38,710 nt of DNA from Fibrobacter sp. GTDB lineage: Bacteria; Fibrobacterota; Fibrobacteria; Fibrobacterales; Fibrobacteraceae. Location of the stretch: assembly GCA_031271785.1 (NCBI GenBank), contig JAISUZ010000038.1, forward strand, positions 1-38,710. Direction: 5' to 3'. A program made the position numbers and the translations under genes. This document shows, piece by piece, positions 1 through 8,156 of this stretch. Every line of letters begins with the position of its first letter. Position 1 is the stretch's first letter. Under the pieces are notes generated by a model, which saw only the letters and a list, made by a program, of their open reading frames with translations, was not told where the DNA came from and did not search any database.

Positions 1-221
1 CCACCAACCAAAAGATTGAATAGAAATTGTGTTTTGCATGCGGAAAATTTACATAAAGAATGGAACTTTGTCAATAGGCAAATCCATAAATTTTGAAAAT
101 TTATATAAAAATTCGTTCACTCCGCATTCATCGGGCATGAAAAGCAGGGATAGGAGGCAAAGGATTAAGTAACAGCACAGACAAAGGAATTTTACACAAT
201 CACTTGGACTTGAAATAATCC

Positions 222-357
222 GGCGTGCCCCCGCGCTTCGCGCGGGTCGGGCTGTATTTTCGTGACAACAAGTTGCCAACGAAAACGGAGCCGCGCTTAC
301 CGATCACTTCGGTCAAGTAACTCGCGAGTCTCCGCCCTTCGGGTCACCATCCCTGCC
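222..357 (+). repeat. R1 multi-hairpin repeat, copy A
   Basis: About 136 bp. It shares with copies B, C and D the blocks GCGTGCCC, GGGTCGGGCTGTAT, CGGAGC, CTCCGCCC and GGGTCACCATCCCT. Between the blocks the sequence differs, but stems are kept: CCCGCGC/GCGCGGG around TTC, TTTTCGT/ACGAAAA, ACCGA/TCGGT, and an enclosing GGAG/CTCC. It looks like an extragenic palindromic element of the kind common in Bacteroidetes and relatives. A structured RNA is an alternative. Confidence 0.75.
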
Positions 358-620
358 CGGACAATCCCGCACGATACTTCTTAGCCATCTTGCACAACTA
401 CTCCAGTTTTAGGAACATTCTCATCGAACCGTTTTTCTACCGCCAAACCGTATTTTTGCAAAACTTATTGATCTTAAACCGCTAATTTTCCATGATTTGT
501 TTATCAGAACTCACGCGAATATAACCAAAAATCATTCTGTTTCTCCGTTTTACAATAGTCATTTTGCCCCAAATTAACGAAAAAACGCAGAAAACTAAGA
601 AAATAATGTGCTAAAAAAAG

Positions 621-717
621 AGATCTCTTAAATCCACCATTCAAATATAATTCATTTTGTCGAATTCAATTCAAAAATGCAAAAAAAAATCGAAAAAGTG
701 GTGGATTTAAGAGATCT
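621..717. repeat. 19-bp perfect inverted repeat flanking a 59-bp AT-rich spacer
   Basis: The left arm (621-639) reads AGATCTCTTAAATCCACCA and the right arm (699-717) is its exact reverse complement. The 59-bp spacer contains a TATAAT hexamer at 646-651 but no convincing -35 box. The right arm ends 37 bp before the start codon of the first FISUMP gene. It could be an invertible promoter segment, a large operator, or an mRNA leader hairpin. The sequence alone does not decide. Confidence 0.7.
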
Positions 718-754
718 TAAAATTCCACTTTTTTAACCCAAACAGGAATTTAAA

Positions 755-1918
755 ATGGCTCTTTTTTCAAAAAAAATAATCATGCTGTTCGGCGCGGCAG
801 TATTTGCCTTTTCTCTCACCGCCTGCGGTGGTGACAGCAGTACCGGCGGGGACGATATTGAATTAAGCAGCAGTTCCATTGAAGCAGACGATCCGAGCAG
901 TTCAAGCGAAATAAAATTGTCCAGCAGTTCTCATACGGATGTAAGTGATCCGCTCAGCAGCAGCTTGCAAGAAATTTCCTCTTCTTCAACTGAAAGTGTT
1001 TCCAGTTCGTCTTCTGTTGCAGAGTCTTCGAGCAGTGCCGCACAAGAAAGCTCCAGCTCCGGTGAAGAAGTCTCCAGTAGTTCGACTGCCGAAGAAAGTT
1101 CATCTTCCGGTTTGGAATCAAGCAGTAGTATAGAACAGAGCAGTTCCAGTAAGGAACCGGAATCCAGTTCCTCTTCCGAAGATAATATGTGCGGCACTGT
1201 TCCTTATGATCCGCGTGCCGAATTTTGTTTTAAAGACAACATTTACGACAGATGCGGCGGTGACCGTTATACTCCGAATACAAAATTCTGTTTTAAAAAC
1301 AGGGTTTATGACAAATGCAACGGCATGGAATATGACCCGTCTAAGCAAATTTGTACAGATGATGTCGTTTTGTCGAAATGCGGGGACCTTATCGGTTATG
1401 ACCCGGAGAAAGAGTTTTGCGATATCCGTGACTACCAAACTTATAAGTGGGTAAAAATCGCTACCCAAACTTGGATGGCGGAGAACTTGAATTATACCAA
1501 GTCACCGATCAATAGCTGGTGTTATGATGAAGATGATGCCAATTGTGACATTTACGGTCCGCTTTACGATTGGGAAACGGCAATGGCGGCTTGCCCCGAA
1601 GGTTGGCATTTGCCGAGCAGAGAGGAATGGAATACATTGGTGAGTTTTGCCGGCGGTTTAGAGGCCGCAGACAGATTAAAATCAGCGGACGGCTGGGACG
1701 GCGCGGGTAGATTCGGTTTCAACGCCTTGCCGGGCGGCAGCCGCAGCTACCTCAGTGGCAATTTCAGCAATGCCGGTAATAACGGCTACTGGTGGACGGC
1801 TACGGAGAACAATAGTGACAATGCGTACCGCATGGATATGCGCAGCGGCAACAATGAAGTGACTGGCATGAGTAACAGTAAGGATTACGGATACTCGGTT
1901 CGGTGTGTTAAGGACTAG
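755..1918 (+). CDS. FISUMP-domain surface lipoprotein with poly-serine linker and Cys-rich repeats
   Basis: 387 residues. A lipoprotein signal (basic FSKK, hydrophobic core, lipobox LTAC, lipidated Cys24) predicts a lipid-anchored, probably surface-exposed protein. Residues about 37-142 form a low-complexity linker rich in SSSS runs. Residues 146-222 carry four degenerate repeats of about 21 residues with the pattern C-x4-YDP-x4-FC-x5-YDKC. From about 229 follows one FISUMP domain (PF09603-type), with TQTWMAENLNY, CPEGWHLPSREEW, GFNALPGG, YWW and SVRCVKD. The family has no known enzymatic role; binding or adhesion is an inference. Residues 329-379 differ sharply from the paralogues while the flanks are conserved. 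The start is supported by an upstream AGGAA and by identical N-termini in the next two genes. Confidence 0.9.
   Translation: MALFSKKIIMLFGAAVFAFSLTACGGDSSTGGDDIELSSSSIEADDPSSSSEIKLSSSSHTDVSDPLSSSLQEISSSSTESVSSSSSVAESSSSAAQESSSSGEEVSSSSTAEESSSSGLESSSSIEQSSSSKEPESSSSSEDNMCGTVPYDPRAEFCFKDNIYDRCGGDRYTPNTKFCFKNRVYDKCNGMEYDPSKQICTDDVVLSKCGDLIGYDPEKEFCDIRDYQTYKWVKIATQTWMAENLNYTKSPINSWCYDEDDANCDIYGPLYDWETAMAACPEGWHLPSREEWNTLVSFAGGLEAADRLKSADGWDGAGRFGFNALPGGSRSYLSGNFSNAGNNGYWWTATENNSDNAYRMDMRSGNNEVTGMSNSKDYGYSVRCVKD
1739..1891 (+). other. Hypervariable C-terminal segment of the first FISUMP domain
   Basis: Codons 329-379, between the conserved ALPGG and GYSVRCVKD. Aligned without gaps to the second domain of the next gene, most codons after the shared N-A-Y differ, and mainly at first and second positions, while the following 30 nt are almost identical. 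Codons ending in C or T predominate. The pattern resembles the variable region of retroelement-diversified C-type-lectin-like proteins, but it is only paralogue divergence as seen here. Confidence 0.45.
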
Positions 1919-1983
1919 AATTTATCGTAATATCTCCGATCATCCCTTAAATTCACCTTTTTAACTCTAACAAGGAATTTAAA

Positions 1984-3432
1984 ATGGCTCTTTTTTCCAA
2001 AAAAACAATCATGTTGTTCGGCTCGGCAGTATTCGCCTTTTCTCTTGTTGCCTGCGGCGGTGACAGCAGTATCGGCGGGGATGATATTGAATTAAGTAGC
2101 AATTCCATTGAAACAAGCGATTTGAGCAGTTCTAGTACTACGCCGGAAAATTCCAGTTCCTCCGCAAATTCTGAAATCAGCAGTTCTTCATTTGCAAATA
2201 AAATTTGCGAAGGTCAGGAATATGACCCCGGCACGGAATATTGTTTCGAAGGAGTTATAAAGGAATACGGTGAATTTATTGATTCCCGGAATGACCGGAC
2301 TTATAAGTATGTAGAAATCGGCGCCCAAACCTGGATGGCGGAAAACTTGAATTATGCCGCAGCAAGCGGCAGTTGGTGTTATGAAGATGATGCTTCCAAT
2401 TGTGACACTTACGGCCGGCTTTATGACTGGGAAACGGCAACGGAAGTTTGCCCCGGTGGTTGGCATTTGCCCAGTGATGATGAATGGACTGCATTGGTGA
2501 ATTTTGCCGGCGGCGGTTTAACAGCCGGAACCGCGTTAAAATCAATGACCGGTTGGGTTGATAATGGTGATGGCTTTATCGCTGGCGCGGATGATTTAGG
2601 CTTTTCTGCCTTGCCGGGCGGCAGCCGCAACAGCGAAGGCAGTTTCTTCTATGCCGGCAGTTACAGTCAGTGGTGGAGCAATTCGGAGGTCGGCAGCAGC
2701 GGTAGCAGCGACGCTCATTACTTGAGCATGATGACTAGTGATGCGGGTATAACTGAAGGTTCCGGCAATAAGAACGATGGTTTTTCGGTTCGTTGTATCA
2801 AGAACTCAGGTGTAGTTTCCAGTTCTTCTGCAAATCCTGAAATCAGCAGTTCTTCCCTTACAAATAAAATTTGCGGCAGTCAGGAATATGACCCAGGCTC
2901 AGAATATTGCTCCGGAGGAGTTGTAAAGGAATACGGTGAATTTACCGATACCCGGGATGATCAAACTTACAAGTATGTAGAAATCGGCGCCCAAACCTGG
3001 ATGGCTAAGAATTTGAATTATGCCGCGGCAAGCGGCAATTGGTGTTATAAAGATGGCGATTCCAACTGTAAAACTTACGGCCGGCTTTATGACTGGGAAA
3101 CGGCAAGGAACGTTTGCCCCGATGGCTGGCATTTGCCGAGCGGAGAGGAATGGACGGTATTGGTGGATTTTGCCGGTGGTTTAGGTATCGCGTTAAAATC
3201 AGCGACAAGCTGGGATGGCACGGATGATTATGGGTTTAATGCCTTGCCGGGTGGTTACCGTAGCTACGGCGGCAGTTTCGGCGATATCGGCAGTAACGGC
3301 TACTGGTGGAGTGCTTCGGAGGGCAGTAGTAGCAATGCCTACAGTCGGTTCATGGGTAGCGACATCGCGATTGTGAGTGAGAGTAACGACAATAAAAGTT
3401 ACGGATACTCGGTTCGGTGCGTTAAGGACTAG
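1984..3432 (+). CDS. FISUMP lipoprotein with two FISUMP domains
   Basis: 482 residues. The N-terminus nearly matches its neighbours (lipobox LVAC, Cys24). The serine linker is shorter (about 38-70). Two full modules follow: residues about 74-274 and 296-482, each opening with a Cys-rich motif (ICxxQEYDPGxEYC), then KEYGEF, IGAQTWMAxNLNYAA, a YGRLYDWETA core and a GWHLP motif, and ending SVRC(I/V)K. The two modules repeat at DNA level with a 666-bp period (222 codons) and are joined by a second short serine linker (SSSSANPEISSSS), so an internal duplication built the gene. The variable segments are residues 214-266 (2623-2781) and 425-473 (3256-3402). The 65-bp spacer before the gene is almost identical to the one after it. 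Confidence 0.9.
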   Translation: MALFSKKTIMLFGSAVFAFSLVACGGDSSIGGDDIELSSNSIETSDLSSSSTTPENSSSSANSEISSSSFANKICEGQEYDPGTEYCFEGVIKEYGEFIDSRNDRTYKYVEIGAQTWMAENLNYAAASGSWCYEDDASNCDTYGRLYDWETATEVCPGGWHLPSDDEWTALVNFAGGGLTAGTALKSMTGWVDNGDGFIAGADDLGFSALPGGSRNSEGSFFYAGSYSQWWSNSEVGSSGSSDAHYLSMMTSDAGITEGSGNKNDGFSVRCIKNSGVVSSSSANPEISSSSLTNKICGSQEYDPGSEYCSGGVVKEYGEFTDTRDDQTYKYVEIGAQTWMAKNLNYAAASGNWCYKDGDSNCKTYGRLYDWETARNVCPDGWHLPSGEEWTVLVDFAGGLGIALKSATSWDGTDDYGFNALPGGYRSYGGSFGDIGSNGYWWSASEGSSSNAYSRFMGSDIAIVSESNDNKSYGYSVRCVKD

Positions 3433-3497
3433 AATTTATCGTAATATCTCCGATCATCCTTTAAATTCACCTTTTTAACTCTAACAAGGAATTTAAA

Positions 3498-5060
3498 ATG
3501 GCTCTTTTTTCCAAAAAAACAATCATGCTGTTAGGCTCGGCGGTATTTGCCTTTTCTCTTACCGCCTGCGGCGGTGACAGCAGTACCGGCGGGGATGATA
3601 TTGAATTAAGCAGCAGTTCCATTGAAACAGACGATTCGAGCAGTTCAAGCGAAATAAAATCGTCCAGCAGTTCTCATACGGATATAAGTGATCCGCTCAG
3701 TAGCAGCAGTTTGCAGGAAAGTTCTTCCTCATCAACGGAAAGTATTTCCGGTTCGTCTTCGGCAACGGATAACAGTTCTTCTTCTGTGAATAATATGTGC
3801 AACACTGTTCCTTATGATCCCGCCTCGGAAAGTTGTATTGACGGCAATATTTATGGTAAATGCGACGATGTTCTTTATCCTGTATCAGCAAAATTTTGTG
3901 TTGCCGGTGTCATTTATGATAAATGCGGCGGTCGGGAGTACGACCTTGCCACGGAAGGTTGTTCCGGTGGCGTCATTTTGCCGAAATGCGGTAGCACTCT
4001 TTATGATCCGGCTGTAAACTTCTGTTTTAGAAATAACGTTTACGATAAATGCAGTGATGCGGAGTTTGACCCGGCTGTGCAATTTTGTTTTGAAAGTAAT
4101 GTTTACGACAAATGTAGCGGTCGGGAGTACGACCTTGCCACGGAAGGTTGTTCCGGTGGCGTCATTTTGCCGAAATGCGGTAACACTCTTTATGACCCGG
4201 CAGTAAAATTCTGTATCGAAAATAGCATTTATGATAAATGCGGCAACAGCAGTTATATTCCCTCTACACAATTTTGTTTTGAAAGTAATGTTTATAACAA
4301 ATGCGGCGGTCAGGAATACGACGTTGTTACGGAAGGTTGTTTCGGTGGCGTCATTTTGCCGAAATGCGGTAACACTCTTTATGACCCGGCAGTAAAATTC
4401 TGTATCGGAAATAGCATTTATGACAAATGCGGCGGCGTAGAATATGATCCGGATGCAGAATATTGCTCCGAAGGGAGTATAGAGAAATACGGTGAATTTA
4501 CCGATACCCGGGATGATCAAATTTACAAGTATGTAGAAATCGGCACCCAAACGTGGATGGCGGAGAATTTGAATTATGTCACGGCAAGTGATAGTTGGTG
4601 TTATGATGATGATAATTCCAACTGCAACACTTACGGCAGACTTTACGAGTGGACAATAGTAATGGGTTTTGAAGCTTCATGCGCTTATCATAGTTGTGCC
4701 GTTCAGATTCAAACAAAGCATCAGGGAATTTGTCCGGAAGGCTGGCATTTGCCGAATAATGACGAATGGACAATACTGATAGATTTTGCCGGTGGTCCGG
4801 ACATGGCGGGAACCGCGTTAAAATCAGCAGTCGATTGGAACGGTACGGATGATTACGGATTCAACGCCTTGCCGGGTGGCTACCGTAGCAACGCCAATGG
4901 CCGTTTCCTTGATGTCGGCAGTAGTATCAGGTGGTGGAGCGCTACGGAGAGTAGTAGCAGTGGTGGCCTTGTGTACTCCTACCGACTCTATAACAGTAGT
5001 GTTACTCTCCTTCACAATTCTAAGATCTTAGGATACTCGGTGCGTTGTATTAAAGACTAG
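3498..5060 (+). CDS. FISUMP lipoprotein with an expanded Cys-rich repeat region
   Basis: 520 residues. It has the same lipoprotein signal (LTAC, Cys24) and a serine linker to about residue 97. A long run of about eleven repeats of roughly 21 residues follows (CGxxxYDPxxxFCxxxxxYDKC), in which three consecutive repeats form a 63-residue superunit repeated three times. The C-terminus is one FISUMP domain with TQTWMAENLNY, an inserted loop (AYHSCAVQIQTKHQG) that is also found in the next gene, EGWHLP, ALPGGYR and SVRCIKD. The paired Cys spacing suggests many small disulfide-linked modules forming a stalk; this is inference. The variable segment is residues 463-511 (4884-5030). A strong terminator lies 34 bp after the stop, so this gene ends the first transcription unit. 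Confidence 0.9.
   Translation: MALFSKKTIMLLGSAVFAFSLTACGGDSSTGGDDIELSSSSIETDDSSSSSEIKSSSSSHTDISDPLSSSSLQESSSSSTESISGSSSATDNSSSSVNNMCNTVPYDPASESCIDGNIYGKCDDVLYPVSAKFCVAGVIYDKCGGREYDLATEGCSGGVILPKCGSTLYDPAVNFCFRNNVYDKCSDAEFDPAVQFCFESNVYDKCSGREYDLATEGCSGGVILPKCGNTLYDPAVKFCIENSIYDKCGNSSYIPSTQFCFESNVYNKCGGQEYDVVTEGCFGGVILPKCGNTLYDPAVKFCIGNSIYDKCGGVEYDPDAEYCSEGSIEKYGEFTDTRDDQIYKYVEIGTQTWMAENLNYVTASDSWCYDDDNSNCNTYGRLYEWTIVMGFEASCAYHSCAVQIQTKHQGICPEGWHLPNNDEWTILIDFAGGPDMAGTALKSAVDWNGTDDYGFNALPGGYRSNANGRFLDVGSSIRWWSATESSSSGGLVYSYRLYNSSVTLLHNSKILGYSVRCIKD
3931..4497 (+). repeat. Three tandem 189-bp in-frame repeats
   Basis: The block GTCGGGAGTACGACC recurs at 3931 and 4120, and in diverged form (GTCAGGAATACGAC) at 4309. 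This is an exact 189-bp spacing, 63 codons. Each unit carries three Cys-rich subrepeats and the shared block GGCGTCATTTTGCCGAAATG. The unit length is a multiple of three, so copy number could change by recombination or slippage without breaking the frame. Confidence 0.85.
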
Positions 5061-5094
5061 GGTTTACCGAAATCCAAACCAAGGTTTTCATTAC

Positions 5095-5124
5095 AAGGGC
5101 ATGGTATCATGCCCTTTATTTTTT
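5095..5124 (+). terminator. Rho-independent terminator after the third FISUMP gene
   Basis: A perfect 9-bp stem AAGGGCATG/CATGCCCTT closes a GTAT loop (5095-5116) and is followed by a T-rich tail to 5124. It separates genes 755-5060 from the fourth FISUMP gene. Confidence 0.92.
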
Positions 5125-5243
5125 GGTGGTATTTTTCTTGTTAATTTGTTTATATGGATATCAGCTCAAAAACCGGGGAAATGAATTGAAAAATATGATA
5201 AAAAAAGATAATTTAAGTGCGCAGTTACACTCGGAGTTTATTA

Positions 5244-6044
5244 ATGATTTTTTCAAAAAAAGCAATCTCTTTATTAGGCTCGGCAATACTAATCCTCTTT
5301 CTTTCAGCCTGCGGCGGCGGCAGTACCGACGGAGGTAGCAATATTGAACTTTCCAGCAGTTCTGTCGGAGATTCGGGATATCCGTTGAGCAGTAGCAGTT
5401 TGCAGAAAAATTCCTCTTCAAGTTTGGATTTAAGCAGTTCAAGTATTGTTATTATCGGCGGAACATTTACCGATGCCCGTGACAATAAAGAATATAAGTG
5501 GGTCGAGATTGGTTCTCAAACTTGGATGGCAGAGAATTTGAATTATGTTACAACAATCCGCTCCTGGTGTTATGATAACGATGAATCCAACTGCGCTCAA
5601 TACGGCCGGCTTTACTACTGGGCAACGGCGATGAATTTGCCGGATTCATGTGTTTTTCAAAAGAATGAAAAAGAATGTTCATCTCAAATCCAAACGCCAC
5701 ATCAGGGCATTTGCCCTGCAGGCTGGCATTTGCCGAGTAATGTTGAATGGACAACACTGCTGGATTTTACCGGTGGTTCATCCGTCGCCGGAATCAAATT
5801 AAAATCAGCGACCGGTTGGGATGGCACAGATGATTACGGCTTCAATGCTTTGCCGGGTGGCCGTCGTTTTAACCTTGGTGGCGCATTCAGGGAAGTTCGC
5901 ACTGGCGGTTATTGGTGGACAGTTACAGAATATGGTAGTGGTACTGCTTATTACCGGCGTATGTCTAGTGAGTTCACCTTTTTGAGTAAGGGCGATGAGG
6001 CTAAGAATAACGGATTGTCAGTTCGTTGTGTCAAGGACAATTAG
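5244..6044 (+). CDS. FISUMP lipoprotein, short form without Cys-rich repeats
   Basis: 266 residues from the ATG at 5244, chosen because GGAG (5233-5236) sits 7 nt upstream and the protein then begins MIFSKKAISLLGSA with lipobox LSAC, matching its paralogues. An in-frame ATG at 5217 would put nine residues before the signal peptide. A short serine linker is followed directly by one FISUMP domain: GSQTWMAENLNY, a YGRLYYWATA core, an inserted SSQIQTPHQG loop shared with the preceding gene, AGWHLP, GFNALPGG, YWW and SVRCVKD. The variable segment is residues 207-256 (5862-6011). It is more diverged than the first three genes and has its own leader after the terminator. Confidence 0.88.
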   Translation: MIFSKKAISLLGSAILILFLSACGGGSTDGGSNIELSSSSVGDSGYPLSSSSLQKNSSSSLDLSSSSIVIIGGTFTDARDNKEYKWVEIGSQTWMAENLNYVTTIRSWCYDNDESNCAQYGRLYYWATAMNLPDSCVFQKNEKECSSQIQTPHQGICPAGWHLPSNVEWTTLLDFTGGSSVAGIKLKSATGWDGTDDYGFNALPGGRRFNLGGAFREVRTGGYWWTVTEYGSGTAYYRRMSSEFTFLSKGDEAKNNGLSVRCVKDN

Positions 6045-6056
6045 GGCTCATCGGGC

Positions 6057-6887
6057 ATGAAAATCAAAGTATTTTTATTCTTTTTGTCTTTCGGTATTTT
6101 GAATGCCGCGAGCCCCTTTATTCATTTCGACTCCTCCAAAGACTTGTTTACGGGAACGCAAATTTTTGCCGCTTTGGATTCGGTAGGGAAGGGAAACTGG
6201 ATGGAATGGGACAAACAGGGAATCCGGGACGCTGAACTCGCTGCTTATTTTTCAAGTCATCCGAAAGCGAAAACGGCCTGGTTTTCTTTGGAAAGTCCGC
6301 AAAAGGGGATTTTTGCCGTTCTTTATCCGCAGTCTTTAAAAAAAGAACGCCTCGCGTTTTACCGTGTGGAAAAATTTGCCCCAAAACCTCAGAAACTTTC
6401 CATGCACGCCTTGCTCGATGAAACCAAAATCTTCAGGGATTACAGACAAACGGCAGAAAATGAATTAGTACACTTGGATAACACGGAACTGCGTGTGACT
6501 CTTTTTGAAAATCGGATTCGTTTTGAATACCGCCATCCGGATACGGAAGGGCTTTTTATACCGAAAAATTTTGCCGCTTTGGAATCGTATGAGAAAAAAC
6601 AATTGGTAGAAGCGTACCTCGCTTTTTTTAAAAATGAATATGCGGTCATGATTCGCGCCTTCGTTCAAAGTACGAGCGGACTCTTTAATTGGCAGCCCTG
6701 GCATTGGTATCTTCCGGAATGGACTTCACCTTACTTTATCTCAAGTGCGGAAGTGGAGGCGTTGCTGTCTGCTCCCGTGCCGCCGGCGGAATTCCGAATT
6801 TTCTTTGCCCGCACCGCCGGCGGAGAAACGGTCACTTTAAAAACCAACGGCAACGGCTTTTATATCATGGAACTTTTCAAACCTTAA
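6057..6887 (+). CDS. Secreted protein of unknown function
   Basis: 276 residues with a typical Sec signal peptide (MKIKVFLFFLSFGILNA, cleavage near A17-A18) and no lipobox Cys, so probably periplasmic or outer-membrane associated. I do not recognise a family. The mature part is mixed polar with several aromatic stretches (NWQPWHWYLPEW). It starts 12 bp after the fourth FISUMP stop and ends 5 bp before the VanZ-like gene, so it is probably cotranscribed with both. The start codon lies inside a CGGGCATGAAA motif that recurs between genes elsewhere in the window, and no good ribosome binding site precedes it. Confidence 0.75.
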   Translation: MKIKVFLFFLSFGILNAASPFIHFDSSKDLFTGTQIFAALDSVGKGNWMEWDKQGIRDAELAAYFSSHPKAKTAWFSLESPQKGIFAVLYPQSLKKERLAFYRVEKFAPKPQKLSMHALLDETKIFRDYRQTAENELVHLDNTELRVTLFENRIRFEYRHPDTEGLFIPKNFAALESYEKKQLVEAYLAFFKNEYAVMIRAFVQSTSGLFNWQPWHWYLPEWTSPYFISSAEVEALLSAPVPPAEFRIFFARTAGGETVTLKTNGNGFYIMELFKP

Positions 6888-6892
6888 TTCCT

Positions 6893-7294
6893 ATGGAACC
6901 TTTTACTCTTTCCCGCTACCCGATTCTCCGTTATCTGCCTTCGATTTTAATCATGGCATTCCTCTTTTACGGCTCAAGCAAACCGGGTTCCGGAATGACA
7001 TGGCTTGTGCCGCCTTACGATAAAATGCTTCACGGTTTTATTTATGCCTGTCTCGGAATTTCTTACGCCCTTTGGTGGAAACCCGCCGCTTGGGAATCCA
7101 AACGCATTCTCGGGATTTTTTGGGTCACGCTCATCTGCCTTATTTTCGGACTTTCCGATGAGTTTCACCAAAGTTTTATTCCGGGAAGGTCCGCCTCCAC
7201 CGATGATTTAATTGCCGATGCGGTCGGCGGGCTTGTGGGCGCGCTCGTATTTGCGCTTTTAAAACCCTGGAAACGGTTTAAAATTTTCCGGTAA
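6893..7294 (+). CDS. VanZ-like family membrane protein
   Basis: 133 residues from the ATG at 6893; a longer in-frame extension overlaps the previous gene and is rejected. Four hydrophobic segments and the motifs DKMLHGFIYACLG and GLSDEFHQSFIPGRSASTDDL, followed by a D-AxGG helix, are characteristic of the VanZ-like family (PF04892). VanZ gives low-level teicoplanin resistance in enterococci, but most family members have no known function, so no resistance role is claimed. It is convergent with murB, whose 3' end overlaps it by 17 bp. Confidence 0.85.
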   Translation: MEPFTLSRYPILRYLPSILIMAFLFYGSSKPGSGMTWLVPPYDKMLHGFIYACLGISYALWWKPAAWESKRILGIFWVTLICLIFGLSDEFHQSFIPGRSASTDDLIADAVGGLVGALVFALLKPWKRFKIFR

Positions 7295-8156
7295 AAATGA
7301 TTTCGCGTTCGAGGGTGATGCCCGAATGAGCGCGCACTTTTTGAATGATTTGCTCCGAAAGATCGTAAATATCTTGCGCGCTCGCGTTTCCGGTATTGAT
7401 AATAAAATTGGCGTGCTTTTCGGAAACTTGCGCTCCGCCCACGGTAAAACCCTTGAGTCCGGCGGCTTCGATCAGCGCTCCCGGAAACCCTGCCGCCGGG
7501 CGCTTGAATGCCGAACCCGCGTTCGGAAATTCGAGAGGTTGTTTTTCCTTCCTTTCTTTCATCACTTTCGCCGCCTCTTCTTTTAAAACTTCCGGATCTC
7601 CGTTTTGAAATTCGAGTATTGCAGATAAAATAATTTCTTTGTTCTTTTGAAAAACAGATCGGCGGTAACCGAATTCACATTCTTCCCGGGAACGTGAAAC
7701 CGTTGTTTCGGTTTCCGGATCGAAGCTCCGGACTTCACGGATGCAATCGGCTATTTCCTGCCCGTAAGCGCCGGCATTCATGTAAACCGCGCCGCCGGTG
7801 GTGCCGGGAATTCCGGAAAGCAAATGAATCCCGGAAAGCCCGCGATGGATGGATTCTCTCGCGAGTGCCGAAAGAGAACTCCCTGCAAAAACTTCGCAAG
7901 AATTCTCTGAAAAATGAAAAGAAGATTTTGAAACGATGCGGATCACAAGACCGTCGAACCCCGCATCGGAAAACACCACATTGCTCCCGCGCCCCAAAAT
8001 GAAATAGGGGAGTTGGCGTTCCTGTGCAAACCGTATTGCAAGTTTCAACGAATCCGCACCGGAAATATCCGTAAAAAACCGCGCCGCGCCGCCCACGCGG
8101 AAGGTTGTATATTGTTTTAAGGAAACATTCTCTTGTATATTTAAGGGGTCTTGCAT
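7278..8156 (-). CDS. murB: UDP-N-acetylenolpyruvoylglucosamine reductase MurB
   Basis: 292 residues. MurB reduces UDP-GlcNAc-enolpyruvate to UDP-MurNAc with NADPH and FAD in the cytoplasm, the second committed step of peptidoglycan synthesis. Visible motifs: YTTFRVGGAARFF and LGRGSNVVFSDAGFDGLVI (FAD-binding), SGIPGTTGGAVYMNAGAYG, FGYRRSVF with the catalytic-region Tyr/Arg, NAGSAFKRP with the proton-donor Ser, and a C-terminal Glu in REIIF. The length fits the shorter type II (Bacillus-like) enzymes. The start is unusual: no ribosome binding site is seen and only 17 bp separate it from the divergent primase start. Confidence 0.96.
   Translation of the reverse strand: MQDPLNIQENVSLKQYTTFRVGGAARFFTDISGADSLKLAIRFAQERQLPYFILGRGSNVVFSDAGFDGLVIRIVSKSSFHFSENSCEVFAGSSLSALARESIHRGLSGIHLLSGIPGTTGGAVYMNAGAYGQEIADCIREVRSFDPETETTVSRSREECEFGYRRSVFQKNKEIILSAILEFQNGDPEVLKEEAAKVMKERKEKQPLEFPNAGSAFKRPAAGFPGALIEAAGLKGFTVGGAQVSEKHANFIINTGNASAQDIYDLSEQIIQKVRAHSGITLEREIIFTGKF

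Follow-up and report, generated by a model that had tools for sequence, protein, structure and literature searches.

FISUMP domains and their divergent tails

Near one end of contig JAISUZ010000038.1 from Fibrobacter sp. lies a run of tandem genes coding for domains of one family whose C-terminal tails differ sharply, and the question that they raise is whether a diversity-generating retroelement (DGR) makes these tails, once made them, or has had no part in them. Within the window (the entire 38,710-nucleotide stretch analyzed), open reading frame calls and the Pfam model PF09603 place four putative lipoprotein genes, marked by a lipobox-like sequence and a Ser-rich linker, with five Fib_succ_major (FISUMP) domains between positions 755 and 6044 (Table 1). 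All four proteins score 106–216 bits, with the curated cut-off at 33.9, and the count of five domains in four tandem genes given by the initial annotation is borne out, with domains 2 and 3 both in gene 2. The closest FISUMP matches in named records come from Fibrobacteres, including those of the termite gut and rumen.

Table 1. Positions of the FISUMP genes, the spacers between them and the variable tails in the window
Feature	Positions	Strand	Description	Evidence
Gene 1	755..1918	+	Lipoprotein signal (SLTAC resembles a lipobox); Ser-rich linker; Cys-rich repeats; one FISUMP domain	ORF, PF09603 E=2e-32
Gene 2	1984..3432	+	Lipoprotein, two FISUMP domains	ORF, PF09603 E=8e-64, two stretches
Gene 3	3498..5060	+	Lipoprotein, Ser-rich linker, tandem Cys-rich repeats, one FISUMP domain	ORF, PF09603 E=4e-30
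Gene 4	5217..6044	+	FISUMP lipoprotein; GTG start at 5217, later in-frame ATG as alternative	ORF, PF09603 E=1e-30
Spacer copy 1	1919..1983	+	65 nt, 98.5% identical to 3433-3497
Spacer copy 2	3433..3497	+	Second copy of the 65-nt spacer
Variable tail 1	1724..1915	+	ALPGG...SVRCVKD	Aligned to relatives' DGR templates
Variable tail 2	2608..2805	+	3-codon insertion after WWSNSE
Variable tail 3	3241..3429	+		Genome's best match to template/tail profile
Variable tail 4	4866..5057	+
Variable tail 5	5847..6038	+

The tails run from ALPGG to SVRC[VI]K[DN] and are 55–72% identical in nucleotides, as against 70–81% for the domain bodies that precede them. From the early description of near-invariant flanks around variable segments, the conserved motifs and the greater variability of the tails stand; the flanks themselves are not near-invariant, pairs of bodies having about 58–75% of their amino acids in common. 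Similarly, the last stretch of about 30 nt, taken to be almost identical between genes, is so in domains 1 and 3 (30 of 33 matches) and not in the other pairs (21–26 of 33). Identity reaches 88–93% over 120 nt at the 5′ ends of the genes and 98.5% between the two 65-nt spacers, well above that of the domains, which suggests that these 5′ units may have been recently duplicated or homogenized. Given this gradient, from 88–98.5% at the 5′ ends down through the bodies to the tails, the window genes can be seen as mosaics in which the 5′ units are homogenized or of recent duplication, the bodies are older and the tails have diverged.

Cys-rich tandem repeats of the type LYDPAVKFC..IYDKCGG occupy positions 3800–4480 in gene 3 and 1190–1420 in gene 1; those in gene 3 reach 86% DNA identity among themselves and weakly match Galaxin_repeat (PF24748). 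In the gap that separates gene 1 from the contig end, a G+C-rich stretch (220–370) with a small palindrome (cccgcgcttcgcgcggg) in A+T-rich surroundings looks like an intergenic repeat; Rfam gave no match over window positions 1–7300. For the domain at 2941–3429, an AlphaFold model was obtained with a pLDDT of 94.9. Its best PDB structure matches are mostly C-type-lectin-like (not significant, with E≥0.05 and TM at most 0.44 by query length), those in a viral library are phage FISUMP and DUF1566 proteins, and the domain profile matched nothing when the PDB was searched by sequence; a lectin-like fold is likely for this domain, although these matches fall short of proof.

Complete DGRs in related Fibrobacteraceae

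Published DGR targets include Fib_succ_major (PMC4159848, PMC8143477, PMC8934634). The targets described from human gut metagenomes (PMC4159848) and from Bacteroides uniformis phages (PMC8143477) have in common with the window genes the Pfam domain and a C-terminal variable segment, and a lipoprotein example has been reported; however, they have a reverse transcriptase (RT) and a template nearby, neither of which was found in the window genome. Within the family Fibrobacteraceae, RVT_1 is present in 31 of 111 genomes, and the DGR-type RT motif GNLTSQ occurs in 19 of 20 fetched RT regions, 15 of these 20 also having template/variable-repeat pairs with adenine-focused mismatches. In four examples, every mismatch falls on a template adenine (L094, 32/32; L089, 30/30; L088, 28/28; L081, 22/22). 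Read in frame, the relatives' templates begin with ALPGG and finish with SVR[CL]..D, either exactly or nearly so; their consensus is ALPGGN.N..FNN.GNNGNWWSATENN..NAYNRN...NNNNK..SVRC, and they have Asn codons where the targets vary. Among these targets are several lipoproteins that, like the window proteins, combine a FISUMP domain with Ser-rich linkers. The DGRs L076–L094 therefore agree with the window in target architecture, tail boundaries and variable columns, while differing from the window genome in being complete RT-template-target cassettes with adenine-focused mismatches. This comparison shows that the domain, the tail boundaries and the variable columns are those of proven template/variable-repeat pairs in relatives, and, because boundaries, Asn columns and architecture all match, the window segments fall into one family with segments proven to be DGR targets.

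Cassettes with FISUMP templates are also found on IMG/VR (viral or prophage) contigs (L203–L211), and a chromosomal contig (L092:2491-3405) bears the same template as these, with a target that looks phage-type and ends in a FISUMP domain. The last residues of the viral templates read SVRLVKD or SVRCLKD, where the window tails have SVRC[VI]K[DN].

Variation at the template-Asn columns

In an alignment to the relatives' templates, amino-acid identity among the window tails is 14% over the 19 template-Asn columns and 69% over the others. Pairs 1-3, 3-5 and 1-5 differ by 0.47–0.71 at template-Asn columns and by 0.12–0.14 elsewhere (4–5 times). Changes had been described as falling mostly on first and second codon positions; this holds at the template-Asn columns of pairs 1-3 and 2-3, where differences at the three positions over 19 codons number 9/9/6 and 14/12/6, and fails for the five tails taken together, in which third positions differ in 53% of replaced codons against 50% in the body.

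A second signature lies in codon endings. Codons ending in C or T do dominate the tails, as first noted, at 67–77% against 54–63% in the bodies, and at the template-Asn columns 90% end in C or T, with K, E, Q, M or W encoded by 5%. In both shares, the window tails are nearer to those of RT-bearing loci (89% and 4%) than to the FISUMP tails of other relatives (77% and 12%). Stratified by amino acid, the C/T excess over the body has an odds ratio of 14 (p=1.5e-5) at the template-Asn columns, as against an absent or weak excess at other tail columns (only 1.7, p=0.06). It is also seen in eight near-complete genomes without a credible RT by the DGR-RT profile (odds ratio 4.3, p=7e-16). A stricter control, using replaced codons at other C/T-ending columns, found C or T in 6 of 7 cases in the window and 24 of 30 in its genome, numbers that are small; in the larger set from the RT-less genomes, the difference was kept under the same control (0.87 vs 0.70, p=0.006). 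The bias, which at first looked like very strong proof of a DGR, was weakened by this control, and since other C/T-ending columns of this genome show a similar bias, it counts as support only.

No RT or template found in the window genome

The window genome (2.28 Mb in 112 contigs, 95.5% complete) contains 29 FISUMP matches. The window had been noted to contain neither RT nor template; this is correct and extends to the 95.5% complete genome, where RVT_1 found no match and an 8-sequence DGR-RT profile, which reaches E=1.5e-189 in the relative G098, found none at E<=10. DNA and profile searches for a template repeat likewise gave only FISUMP tails and chance matches, none of them Asn-rich, and the weak candidates on the genome's own contigs C96, C32, C99, C35 and C76 proved on inspection not to be Asn-rich templates. 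The genome-wide search for an RT and an A-rich near-copy, proposed as a check of the initial annotation, thus goes against a present-day DGR in this genome. Descent of the window segments directly from any of the templates compared, all from other genera, is ruled out by a non-A mismatch of 28–45%. No second genome of the same genus was found in searches of 111 family genomes.

Eight contigs of this assembly (C19, C26, C44, C52, C58, C73, C78 and C80) start no more than about 1.5 kb from a FISUMP match, so that FISUMP arrays probably interrupt the assembly. At the end of another contig (C32:38929-39033; L304, L314) stands a short remnant, NAYSVRCVKD, with the remainder of the FISUMP domain missing.

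Frozen and fresh tails

The age of the tails can be gauged from their silent sites. Co-targets of one template in relatives have third-base differences of 0.06–0.14 at same-residue codons and of 0–0.22 at replaced codons, whereas the window tails differ by 0.25–0.52 at constant columns and by 0.32–0.74 at template-Asn columns. The former contrast implies that no shared template recently rewrote the window tails, and with third positions differing in 32–74% of codons at variable columns, no direct A-to-N record survives in them. The resemblance to DGR targets is real and specific, down to templates in relatives that run from ALPGG to SVRC-K-D with Asn codons at the variable columns, and it comes with no present-day system found here; since neither RT nor template was found and silent sites have diverged, these segments can be called a "target of a DGR" by ancestry, not by any activity demonstrated in this genome.

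Across FISUMP pairs with 80–100% identical bodies, positions 1 and 2 of the template-Asn codons are mostly either at most 0.2 or at least 0.4 different, the former, frozen group consisting mostly of orthologues without an RT nearby and the latter being saturated. This division into two groups suggests that orthologues usually preserve the template-Asn columns, which change in bursts. G103, a one-contig genome that yields no RT to RVT_1 or to the DGR-RT profile, is the clearest case: its tandem FISUMP genes have bodies that are 96–98% identical, with zero third-base differences at constant columns and 0.45–0.71 differences at template-Asn positions 1 and 2. These arrays lie at C1:1008000-1022000 (L348) and 366000-380000 (L349), and no source of diversity was detected in the genome; a template candidate with a short frame at C1:2492835 turned out to be an ordinary FISUMP tail that is truncated. 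Because a genome without a detectable RT bears such freshly diversified genes, orphan DGR targets, fresh and old, exist in Fibrobacteraceae, and the window tails fit the old end of this series.

Both Fib_succ_major DGR targets and orphan targets are already published kinds. Treponema denticola isolates without RT and template keep orphan DGR target genes (PMC4891356), and Thiohalocapsa has DGR loci with missing or pseudogenized machinery (PMC10907252). The T. denticola case resembles our reading of the window in that target genes remain after loss of the core DGR; however, its orphan variable regions match a known template of a sister strain, whereas the window tails match only templates of other genera, by way of a profile.

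Origin of the window tails

Taken together, these observations are best accounted for if the window tails are old, orphaned variable regions of the targets of a lost DGR, frozen and since then drifting and recombining, a reading to which we give a probability of roughly two in three. In an ancestor, a DGR like those that related Fibrobacteraceae still have would have rewritten the C-terminal segments of FISUMP lipoproteins from an Asn-rich (AAY) template, altering template adenines in the process. It would then have been lost from the lineage, its absence being established as far as a 95.5% complete assembly allows, and the genes would have diverged afterwards by point mutation, duplication and homogenization of their 5′ ends. 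The FISUMP domains are envisaged as lipid-anchored, probably at the cell surface, and presented on a Ser-linker, with a variable face that is likely to recognize ligands carried by other cells, phages or plant polymer.

The main surviving rival, which we regard as improbable though deserving of weight, is ordinary divergence: point mutation, selection and recombination among copies would have set old FISUMP paralogues apart at the positions that contact ligands, with no DGR ever in the lineage, and DGR templates elsewhere would merely have Asn codons at the same tolerant positions. Paralogues can indeed diverge functionally at ligand-binding sites without a DGR, and several of the above findings are as this account would have them: silent divergence in the tails is like that in the bodies, third positions differ as often in both, the 5′ ends exceed the bodies in identity, such that recombination or homogenization does occur, and codons at other C/T-ending columns of this genome are biased to much the same degree. 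However, RT-less orthologues with 80–100% identical bodies keep their template-Asn columns nearly unchanged, an argument that these columns are not intrinsically fast, and the 4–5-fold concentration of differences on them in three window pairs also speaks against it. Past DGR activity in the window lineage, like the binding role, is what we infer. Continued DGR action on these genes, by way of an RT and template in unassembled DNA or supplied in trans by a mobile element or prophage, is very unlikely. The unseen 4.5% of the assembly, the several contigs that end near FISUMP genes and the cassettes with FISUMP templates on viral or prophage contigs leave it some room, but co-targets of an active system should agree at constant codons as they do in relatives, which the window tails do not; moreover, sensitive profile searches of the genome for RT and template were empty, and the viral templates have a different end from that of the window tails.

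The old-orphan reading of the window bears on the family at large. The F. succinogenes major paralogous (FISUMP) repertoire, TIGR02145, is the same family as in the window, and Fibrobacteres genomes mostly have dozens of copies, tabulated among "other cellulose-binding proteins" (PMC4704652); in the literature searched, no published link between this repertoire and DGRs was found. It is conceivable, though we hold this tentatively and at somewhat less than even odds, that the Fibrobacteraceae repertoire was built by transient, hit-and-run DGRs, whose cassettes arrive, rewrite tandem lipoprotein genes and vanish, leaving frozen receptor banks, of which the window would be an aged example and G103, with no detectable RT, a fresh one. 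If this is true, the most expanded paralogous family of these fiber-degrading bacteria, so far classed with cellulose-binding proteins, would in good part be the accumulated output of vanished mutagenic retroelements, and one could trace what becomes of diversity made by DGRs through a dated series of variable regions, some fresh and others frozen.
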